DNA of 64,000 nt. Source: Caenorhabditis elegans. Lineage: Eukaryota > Nematoda > Chromadorea > Rhabditida > Rhabditidae. The stretch spans positions 4,092,001 through 4,156,000 of the forward strand of contig NC_003279.8 in assembly GCF_000002985.6 (NCBI RefSeq). The letters are read 5' to 3'. Numbering within the stretch: position 1 is the stretch's first letter; each line of letters begins with the position of its first letter. Of the stretch, positions 11,713 through 46,945 are shown piece by piece. The translations under genes and the position numbers were made by a program. The notes under the pieces are model-generated. The model was not told the DNA's origin, ran no database searches, and worked only from the letters and a program-made list of their open reading frames with translations.

Positions 11713-14700
11713 ATGGAGCCAACTTTATCTCCAAATTATCGAAATGAAGCTTTCGAACACGATGATTCATATTTGGTCAACTTTGTAGCCGGATCTTCTT
11801 CTGGAGAATCTTCAACTCCGTGGGTTTTGTAGGATAAATACTGTTTTTTTACGGTCGAGTGATTCTCACAGACAATTGTGAAAACAGTTATGTTGGAAAA
11901 CGATAAAATGCTGGATTATTTATTTATTCGGAAGTGCAAAGTGCAAAGGGAAAATTTCTAAAACTGTCCTAGAATTAAAAGAATACCCCCCAAAGTGTTT
12001 AAAGTTTTTTGAAATTTGTTTTGTTTTTCTGTGAGGTGTATCTAAAATCTAAAAAGGGTCTCACATAAATATAGTATAGTTTTTTTGTTAGAATAAAAAA
12101 ATTATCTTCTTTTCTAAAAACTAAAACTATTTTTAAAAAAGTCGCTCTGAAAGTTGACTCGAGTACTTTTTCCTTAGAATAAATTATAGAAAACGCCTCA
12201 GAAAAATTATTTAAGCCTGGTATTTATTTTATAATGTTTCGTGAAATTGGGAGCAATTTGAGTTGTCTTCAAAATATATTAAATTTTCAAAAAAAAGAAC
12301 ATTTCTAGAGTCGAGTGGAAAATTTATAAGTAACCAAAATTCCAAAAAACTAAAAATATTTTTGTTCGGTGTCACCTTTCCGTATGTAACTTTTATAAAA
12401 CAGCTTTTTTAGTTTCCAATTTTTCCATGAAAAAACCAATTAATTCCGTGAAGAGTTTTCAAATTTAGTATTTAAAATTTCCAGGCCACCTTCCTTTGTC
12501 CCAAAATGCAATTTCCGCTACAACCAATCTCGATCTCAGATGATAATCGAAGTTCCAGTTGCTCAACTAAAAAAGCTCAGAAAACTGGAAGGAACCGTTT
12601 CAATAAAAAGGGAAACTCAACATTTTTGTGGTAAATTTCCAAAAGTTGAAGTTTACAAAATTAGTGTTTTGCAGAAACTACAACAATGCACGGACCAAAA
12701 CGAATATTTCAAGGAAAACGGTAATTTCGTTTTAGCTTCTTTTCTGTTTTCCAGAAAAAAAAATTCCAAAAAATGCAAAAATTTCAGTTGGGCAACGTTA
12801 TTCTGGCTCATAATGGTGTCGTGTTCCCTGGGACTTTTGATCACTCAAGTTTTTATTCTAGCCTCCGAATATCTCTCAAAACCAACTGTTTCAGATGTGA
12901 GACTTCATATGTTTTGGAGAATTGAAAATACAACATTTATACTTTCAGGTATCATTTCTAATTAATGAAGATGGAATGGACTTTCCTCTTATCACAATTT
13001 GCAATTTAAATCCAATTCGGAAAACTTATGTTAATGGTTAGAATTGTTTTTTCTGACTATACATAATTTCAATATTTTCCAGAAATCAACAAAACTGGTG
13101 AAGTGAGTCCTCCAATGATAAACTACATGATGAAATGGTTCACTGAAATTCCTACTCTCATCGGTGGTGCTGACAGGCCGACCTTGCATGAGGGAAACGA
13201 GGAGTTGAAGCTGTACATGAAAAATCATCTGAATTTCACTGTTGACAGTTTCTTTATGAATTCCGGCTTTAGTTGTCCTGATATTTTCAAGCTCTGCAGC
13301 TTTCAAGGAGAAATGTGAGTTTTTTTTTGAAACTACATAGAAGTGATGTATTATTTCCAATTTTCCAATGGTTTGGTTGAAAATACCATTCAAAACATAT
13401 AGAATGTATTATGTTGTTAAAAACATTTCAATGCAGTAAAAATATACTTTTAAAAGGCCAGCCCAGTTTTGGCACCGGGAGAAAATGTGTACGGTTTATT
13501 GAAACTGAGTCAACCCTACCTTGCCACTAAAACACTGTTAAAATACATTCTGGAAACTTTTTTTACAGTATTTTGCCACTGGCAATCTGTTCTTCGCAAG
13601 ATTTATATTCATTTACAATAGATATTAAACTTCAAATAAAAATTATGAAGTTCAAATTTTTTTTATTTTAAAATCCATATCTGTGGTTTCTATACAAAAT
13701 TTTTTTTCATATCAGATTTGATAGTTTTTTAAACAGTGCAAAAACACAACCATTTTAAAGATAATATAAATAACTGTTTATTTAGTATGGTGCTGAACTA
13801 ATGGGTGTTTTTTTTCAGATTTGACTGCTGCACCCTTTCGACAGAAGTTCTCACCCCTCTTGGGAAATGTTTCACATTGGATCTTTCAAGTAGTACAAAA
13901 GCAAGCATGCACAAACAAACAGAACCTGGAATTCAAGCGGGTCTTGCAATTACCCTGGATGCACATCTTGAGGAGCAGTTTGATGGCTCAAATGGAATGG
14001 ATGCACTTTTTACAAATTCATTTGTGAATGGATTTCGATATTTCGTTCATCCACCTAACACTATTCCACATTTGTCATCTGATGAGTTCACAGTTTCCCC
14101 GAACACTGTGGCGTTTTCAGCAATTTCTAGCGATCGGGTGAGTAATTTTATATAGTCTCCTAGGAAGCTTAAAATTTTGTTCAATAATGCTCCGAGATAT
14201 TTTGGTTTTGATTTTCAGTAAATTTTAAGTGTTGAAAATTATAATCTCCGTCTGAAAGTGCATGTTTAACTTTTTAAAGTTTTATTTGCAAAACTAGGTT
14301 TCTGAAACTATTCAGAAGGAAAAGATGTCGAAAGAATTTTGAAACTTTTTCAAAAAAATTTTCAATAAAATTTTCAAATTGTGTTGACTTCAACTTTTCC
14401 CTGCATAAATTCACAGGAAAATATTCTTTCTCACTAAATGTTTTTACTTTTTCAGTACGTGCTCCTACCTACTCATCAATGGGGAAACTGCACCGAAAAT
14501 TTTCCAGATGGAATTCAATCCAACTTATCGTATAGTTCTGGTAACTGTCTTTCACTCTGCAAAGCTAAATTTTACATGGAAAATTGTGGATGCACACCTG
14601 CCTTATATAATATTGAAAATAGTATGTTTTTTTTTTGTTAAAGTTTGTTTTTGTGTTTTTTACCTTAAATTTCCAGACCTCAAAGAATGCACCCCGTATG

Positions 14701-45796: not shown

Positions 45797-46945
45797 TTAG
45801 GAGAGGTACGAATAGGAATAGTCATCCCCAGTGCTCACACATTTGGAGTTCAGCTGCTCGGCAGCAAATTGGACGTATTGCTGGTGTTGCTCTGAAAACG
45901 TTAATTATAAAATAAATATTATTCATGGAAAATCTTACCATCAAGCTTCTTAGTCAGAACCATTTCGAACTCATTTCTCAGACGGATTTCTTGTTGTTTG
46001 AGCAGACGTTCGCATATCATTTGAACATTTGCCATTGTAAATTCCCTCTTGGCGCTGGAACGATCAGTCACAGATGTTGATGGTGCTTCACCCTCGGAAT
46101 CCGATCCAGACTGAAAATTCGATTTTAACAAAACCATAGTTAATTTCAAAACACTGAAGATATTTCAAAACACTGAAGATAAATTTGTTGTATACTATTT
46201 TAATTTAATTGTAGTCAGAAATAAGTATAGCCGGTTCGATGACAAGGAACCAAACTAGTTGCTATCTGCCGTCTCTATAGTGTCCGATTGAGCTCAACGA
46301 AATAATGGATTTCGCAAAGGAATAACAGACACAACTAAAAGAATAGCTCAGCTATAATCCTACCTTGGGAGAAGAAGGAGCTCTGTAAGCTTTTGAGTAG
46401 TTTGAGCTGCATCCGTCTCCTCTTTGATCTCCATCATCATCAAAGTCATTGCTGCGTGGAATGGCTTTTCGCTTGCGCAGGTTTTTCACTTCCGAACTGA
46501 GATATGTTTTGAGCTGATTTCGAGACAAACGAGTCATAAGTGTAGCTGCTTGGAAGACGCTTTCCTCCTGAAAAATGAATAATTTTCGATATTAGGTAAA
46601 ATAAATGTGGTCAGAAGAAAGTATAGCCACGATCAAGTAGAACGCAACTAGTTGCAAATCTGCCATTGCTTTTGTGTCAGTATGAGCTCGAAAAGGAACA
46701 AATATCACTATCCGAGGAATAAATGACACAAATCTAAACATATTATATCAATTATCTACCTGTTCTTTGAACTTCTGAGCAAATGTGCTGGTTGACGGCA
46801 GTGTAGCGGCAATAGTTCCCATTTGAGCACGGAAAGGAGGGCATTGCGTTCTGGCTCGCTTTGCTTCTCCGTTGTATGTCTCATCAGTTAAAAAAGATTC
46901 ATACTCGTGTTGCAGAGGTCTTTTCAGTGCGAGTCCGCAAGCCAT
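45797..46945 (-). CDS. akir-1: Akirin
   Basis: Nuclear akirin, a small adaptor that links transcription factors to chromatin remodelling and, in C. elegans, also affects innate immunity, meiosis and proteasome import. Exons in coding order: 46945-46760, 46567-46364, 46110-45939, 45891-45797; 218 residues. The conserved N-terminus MACGLALKRPL is followed by the basic AKRARTQ nuclear-localisation stretch. The middle contains the conserved LKTYLSSEV and an acidic serine-rich linker. The conserved C-terminal helix region REFTMANVQMICERLLKQQE leads to the end SYSYLS. A CTTTCAG acceptor lies 7 bases before the ATG, so the mRNA is likely trans-spliced. Introns 1 and 2 each contain a related H/ACA snoRNA-like block. 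Confidence 0.95.
46207..46337 (-). ncRNA. Probable H/ACA snoRNA in akir-1 intron 2
   Basis: About 131 bases inside the akir-1 intron, on the coding strand. First hairpin: base stem GTGTC (near 46332) with GACAC (near 46286) and a perfect upper stem GCGAAAT/ATTTCGT. Hinge: ATAGAGA, an imperfect H box (ANANNA). Second hairpin: base stem CAGA/TCTG and upper stem GGTTC/GAACC. It ends CTGACTACAATT, so box ACA is at 46210-46212, three bases from the proposed 3' end. The related block at 46603-46735 keeps the same layout. Target RNA not identified. Confidence 0.65.
46603..46735 (-). ncRNA. Probable H/ACA snoRNA in akir-1 intron 1
   Basis: About 133 bases inside the akir-1 intron, on the coding strand, similar in sequence to the block in intron 2. 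First hairpin: base stem TTGTGTCA with TGACACAA (8 pairs). Hinge: AAAGCA, which fits the H box ANANNA. Second hairpin: base stem CAGA/TCTG, with the word GCAACTAGTT shared with the other copy. It ends CTGACCACATTT, placing box ACA three bases from the proposed 3' end (46606-46608). Intron hosting is common for snoRNAs. Confidence 0.65.

Follow-up and report, generated by a model that had tools for sequence, protein, structure and literature searches.

Intronic box H/ACA snoRNAs have been described in Caenorhabditis elegans, for example CeN46 and CeN104, and the available portion of that study depicts them with a pair of hairpins, a hinge, an ACA box and pockets (PMC2442092). The same portion reports that the levels of worm H/ACA RNAs drop upon depletion of Nhp2 and Nop10 and less so of Cbf5, but not of Gar1. 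H/ACA rules given in the accessible text of PMC7277114 place the pocket approximately 15 nt from the box, call for at least 8 pairs and define the hinge as ANANNA. In our study we analyzed a 64-kb stretch of C. elegans DNA, referred to as the window, in which the akirin gene akir-1 has, in each of two adjacent introns, a block that fits the hairpin pair, hinge, ACA and pockets of these worm snoRNAs. The comparison with the catalogued CeN RNAs was made at the level of the class description.

We put the probability that the two akir-1 introns harbour tandem box H/ACA guide RNA genes at about 0.88, and we hold it just as probable that both RNAs descend from one duplicated gene. The pair belongs to an ordinary and known kind of gene, and the two loci may already be annotated or catalogued. 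The added value of the analysis lies in the concordant target predictions and in the pattern of divergence between the copies.

The shared block and its host introns

The akirin gene is encoded on the minus strand of the window and is, according to the available part of PMC10520889, the single akirin of C. elegans. Joining the exons 46760-46945, 46364-46567 and 45941-46110 yields a partial reading frame on the minus strand that stays open over 186 residues and matches a solved Akirin-2 chain across query residues 1-186 (E 5.3e-9); a Pfam search of the host protein returned 0 matches. The copies are named upstream and downstream by their order along minus-strand akir-1 (Table 1), and the exon that separates the two introns also falls within the span 46207..46735 marked in the earlier note. 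In coordinates of contig C1 (chromosome I), the upstream copy occupies 4138603-4138735 and the downstream copy 4138207-4138337. The intron of the downstream copy additionally contains a perfect 19-base tandem duplication (ATTTCAAAACACTGAAGAT, present twice, 46143-46180), located between the RNA block and the 3' splice site.

The earlier note had claimed a diverged block of approximately 130 bases in the same orientation in adjacent akir-1 introns, and we recovered such a block with a length of 131-133 bases on the minus strand, which is the coding strand. Aligned locally, the copies scored 42 with an identity of 90/125 bases, while dinucleotide shuffling resulted in a mean of 8.9 and a maximum of 15, and none of 1000 shuffled pairs reached the true score. 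The regions outside the block stayed at shuffle level, with 1000/1000 shuffles as high for the 5' flanks and 866/1000 for the 3' flanks; the same was observed for two neighbouring exon stretches (310/1000 and 404/1000). Since the similarity is confined to the block and absent from flanks and exons, the shared unit is an RNA-sized block and not the whole introns. In both introns the similarity does not extend past the predicted RNA. At its predicted 3' end each copy reads CTGAC(C/T)ACA and three further bases, in line with the ACA plus three bases of the earlier note; the ACA directly follows the 3' stem in both copies, and the similarity fades at that point.

Identity is distributed unevenly along the block. 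It amounts to 39/44 in the stems, 23/29 in the pockets, 3/3 in the ACA, 3/7 in the hinge and 19/38 in the apical parts, omitting gap columns (one in the pockets, six in the apical parts). Stems and pockets are better kept than the apical parts (Fisher p 0.0001 and 0.013, respectively). The copies thus differ mainly in their apical parts, with the stems and, within the pockets, the halves nearest to the uridine remaining fixed.

Table 1. Host introns and predicted H/ACA features in the window
Feature	Position	Strand	Length or sequence	Basis or pairing
Host intron, upstream copy	46568..46759	-	192 nt, GTAG...TTTCAG	
Upstream box H/ACA guide RNA (predicted)	46603..46735	-	~133 nt	own fold, lowest-energy scan match; ends inferred
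Upstream 5' pocket, left guide	46717..46723	-	UUUAUUC	consensus fold; 5 contiguous Watson-Crick pairs, 18S U492
Upstream 5' pocket, right guide	46680..46686	-	CUCAUAC	5 contiguous Watson-Crick pairs, 18S U492
Upstream H box	46667..46672	-	AAAGCA	sequence
Upstream 3' pocket, left guide	46651..46658	-	UUUGCAAC	8 contiguous Watson-Crick pairs, 18S U1075
Upstream 3' pocket, right guide	46616..46623	-	UACUUUCU	4 contiguous Watson-Crick pairs, 18S U1075
Upstream ACA box	46606..46608	-	ACA	sequence
Host intron, downstream copy	46111..46363	-	253 nt, GTAG...TTTCAG	
Downstream box H/ACA guide RNA (predicted)	46207..46337	-	~131 nt	90/125 identity to upstream; ends inferred
Downstream 5' pocket, left guide	46320..46326	-	GUUAUUC	5 contiguous Watson-Crick pairs, 18S U492
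Downstream 5' pocket, right guide	46286..46292	-	CUCAAUC	4 contiguous Watson-Crick pairs, 18S U492
Downstream hinge, one base off ANANNA	46273..46278	-	AUAGAG	sequence
Downstream 3' pocket, left guide	46258..46264	-	UAGCAAC	5 contiguous Watson-Crick pairs, 18S U1075
Downstream 3' pocket, right guide	46220..46227	-	UACUUAUU	4 contiguous Watson-Crick pairs, 18S U1075
Downstream ACA box	46210..46212	-	ACA	sequence

Fold, hinge and base-pair changes

Folding both copies to a consensus, with no target as input, produced a pair of hairpins whose internal loops, open on both sides, form the pockets, followed by the ACA. The upstream copy adopts this two-hairpin form with pockets on its own as well (-35.9 kcal/mol, 0/200 shuffles as low, z -3.87). 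For the downstream copy we obtained -29.8 kcal/mol with 19/200 shuffles as low and a z of -1.45, and its own lowest-energy fold contains the 5' hairpin with the 3' hairpin shifted. The two hairpins and hinge that had been proposed by eye for both introns hence find support in the consensus and in the upstream copy alone, but less so in the downstream copy with its weaker fold and displaced 3' hairpin. A plus-strand reading of the block folded more poorly than the minus strand in both copies and was rejected.

At the hinge, the upstream H box fits ANANNA, although the common structure engages its first A in a pair at the base of the 5' stem; the downstream hexamer at the same place is one base off. 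In both copies, pocket and box lie 14 nt apart in the 5' half and 15 nt apart in the 3' half, which agrees with the spacing given in the available text of PMC7277114. Against the rule of at least 8 pairs, the contiguous Watson-Crick guide pairs number 12 (3') and 10 (5') in the upstream copy and 9 and 9 in the downstream copy.

Pairing holds in 43 of the 44 cells of the common structure, as compared with at most 48.7 percent after sliding the partners, a difference to be read in the light of the structure having been derived from these same sequences. Eighteen of the 22 consensus pairs are invariant, two vary on one side, one is broken in the downstream copy and a single one changes on both sides (A-U vs U-G). 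The statement that paired changes keep the stems was therefore overstated, as GTGTC/GACAC and CAGA/TCTG are identical in both copies and only 1 of 22 pairs covaries. A shuffle control of the covariation (257/500) is uninformative with two sequences, and we rejected covariation as proof of the structure because two sequences offer too few changes.

Predicted 18S targets

The target set comprised 1632 uridines of 18S, 5.8S, 26S and 5S rRNA and of U1, U2, U4, U5 and U6. The rRNA was taken from the end of contig C1 and bounded by Rfam models, and 5S, U1, U2, U4, U5 and U6 were represented by one copy each from the same genome. The right pocket strand had to pair upstream of the uridine, and pairing of the left strand started two bases downstream of it, with one mismatch allowed and at least three positions on each side. 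Pocket boundaries follow the consensus structure, but they were fixed after viewing a target scan over many boundaries, in which the best matches varied, some lying in spacer DNA and some scoring above 18S U492. In the earliest target scan the 5' pocket had been taken to end in CC.

A search of rRNA and snRNA uridines with the 3' pockets, put forward as a check in the earlier note, ranked 18S U1075 first of 1632 for both copies, with scores of 29 (upstream) and 22 (downstream); the runner-up had a joint score of 14.5 compared with a true joint score of 22. For the 5' pockets, 18S U492 was top of 1632 in both copies (23 upstream, 21 downstream). Here the runner-up was U2 U83, ranked second in each copy, with a joint score of 19 vs 21 for U492. 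The suggestion that the guide may be partly kept thus gains support, as U1075 and U492 come out on top for either copy. In 18S, U1075 lies in the context AGUA-U-GGUUGC and U492 in AUGAG-U-UGAAUA. The GGAAUAAUG stretch of 18S was rejected as a 5' target, as the left strand of the pocket fits it and the right strand does not. A map of modified positions in C. elegans 18S did not turn up in the literature searched. The human 18S pseudouridines 572 and 1136 presumably sit in stretches equivalent to C. elegans U492 and U1075.

Permutation of the pocket columns, carried out jointly in the two copies, reached the true joint score in 16/5000 cases for the 3' pockets and in 22/5000 for the 5' pockets. 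For the upstream copy alone the counts were 2/2000 (3') and 58/2000 (5'), and for the downstream copy alone 109/2000 and 338/2000. When the guides were taken slightly longer in a preceding run, the 3' pockets gave 0/500 and 62/500. As these counts are uneven from copy to copy, it is the 3' target of the upstream copy that is strong, while the downstream targets are persuasive only through the agreement with the sister copy, which is itself not independent. In the control with the antisense target strand the joint scores were 15 (5') and 21 (3'), the latter being uncomfortably close to the true 22.

By analogy with their class, each RNA would be freed from the spliced and debranched akir-1 intron by trimming and would be bound and protected by the H/ACA proteins dyskerin/Cbf5, Nhp2, Nop10 and Gar1. 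The 3' pocket would then direct dyskerin to pseudouridylate 18S U1075, and the 5' pocket would do so for 18S U492. The upstream copy is canonical. In the downstream copy the core of both guides is intact and the outer pairs and the hinge are not; the kept core guides together with the imperfect hinge and the shorter pairing point to a redundant second gene or to one that is starting to decay.

Searches, alternative readings and known RNAs

A covariance-model search, which had been recommended in the earlier note, yielded no Rfam hit at gathering scores anywhere in the window. At E values up to 10, Rfam returned two unrelated families across 46000-46900, both below threshold. Across the whole genome (100,286,401 bases, 7 contigs) the pattern GCAACTAGTT-N8..30-GGCTATACTT occurs at these two places only, with a control count of 0; a second exact pattern from the block is also restricted to the same two places, and the exact block pattern is absent from viral contigs. 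DNA searches of the genome returned the query itself and no other copy, the sister included. As the sister copy was missed, these searches are insensitive at this level of divergence, and diverged relatives elsewhere could escape them. An RNA model built from both copies and run over the 64-kb window at E up to 10 found its two source copies and nothing else.

A structural H/ACA scan of the window on both strands with a relaxed hinge, covering 1942 ACA occurrences without overlap or 2050 with overlap, gave five matches. The upstream copy, matched with the relaxed hinge, had the lowest energy among them, and the downstream copy was not recovered. The next match is a plus-strand fold at 13963, with a relaxed hinge and an energy sum of -24.9; it seemingly falls into a coding exon of a different gene and probably arose by chance. 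Regarding prior reports, we recognised no paper naming these RNAs among the open-licence papers searched, and a literature search with short sequence words from the copies retrieved one unrelated rice paper.

The earlier view of an intronic snoRNA that duplicated into the next intron is supported by the confined similarity, the two-hairpin fold and the concordant 18S targets. The same features bear on a reading in which the block is no RNA gene at all and represents the remnant of a transposon, or a duplicated element that acts in splicing or transcription from within the intron, with a fold due to chance. Covariation is nearly absent and H/ACA-like folds do arise by chance, as the four other window matches under relaxed rules illustrate. 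However, the similarity stops at the predicted RNA ends, stems and pockets are the conserved parts, the two pockets agree on their targets in both copies, and two exact patterns are unique to these places genome-wide, unlike those of a repeat. We therefore regard a non-RNA element as highly improbable. Somewhat less remote, though still improbable, is an H/ACA pair whose 5' pocket serves U2 snRNA U83, alone or alongside 18S U492. U2 U83 is the second-ranked 5'-pocket target both jointly and in each copy, but its first left-side position is mismatched, and it scores below U492 in both copies. The 5' pockets (46680-46723 and 46286-46326, minus strand) may have a double target in U2 U83 and 18S U492.

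The strongest competitor concerns the downstream copy, which could be a decaying pseudogene next to one working snoRNA, the upstream RNA, which alone would be processed and act as a guide. Its hinge deviates by one base, its fold is weaker, one stem pair is broken, and its guides form 9 and 9 pairs as compared with 12 and 10 upstream. Nevertheless, stems (39/44) and pockets (23/29) are kept better than the apical parts (19/38), and the best targets of the downstream copy are the same two uridines. Such constraint could in part predate the decay or rest on the upstream copy alone, and we consider this account possible at distinctly less than even odds. Beyond our preferred reading of two guide RNA genes derived from one, the pair might stand for a nematode H/ACA family that has yet to be described, with a single RNA guiding two 18S sites (U492 and U1075), two diverging tandem akir-1 intronic genes encoding it and the second gene surviving on the core guide pairs alone; we rate this as rather unlikely.

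If the two guide RNA genes are confirmed, guides would be assigned to two pseudouridine sites of C. elegans 18S, and the pair would constitute a small natural experiment on the divergence of a duplicated intronic snoRNA. Moreover, akir-1 deletions spanning these introns may then remove snoRNAs besides the protein.

With respect to known systems, 18S-572 is tabulated beside human SNORA42/SNORA80 in the available part of PMC6466398. The akir-1 5' pocket may have the same role as these human RNAs, provided that human 18S U572 and C. elegans U492 are equivalent positions; no Rfam family matches the copies at threshold. The C. elegans telomerase RNA, which is encoded in an nmy-2 intron, is likewise intronic and uses the dyskerin complex according to the accessible text of PMC12921731. 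As described there, it differs from the akir-1 copies in its host gene and in its role.
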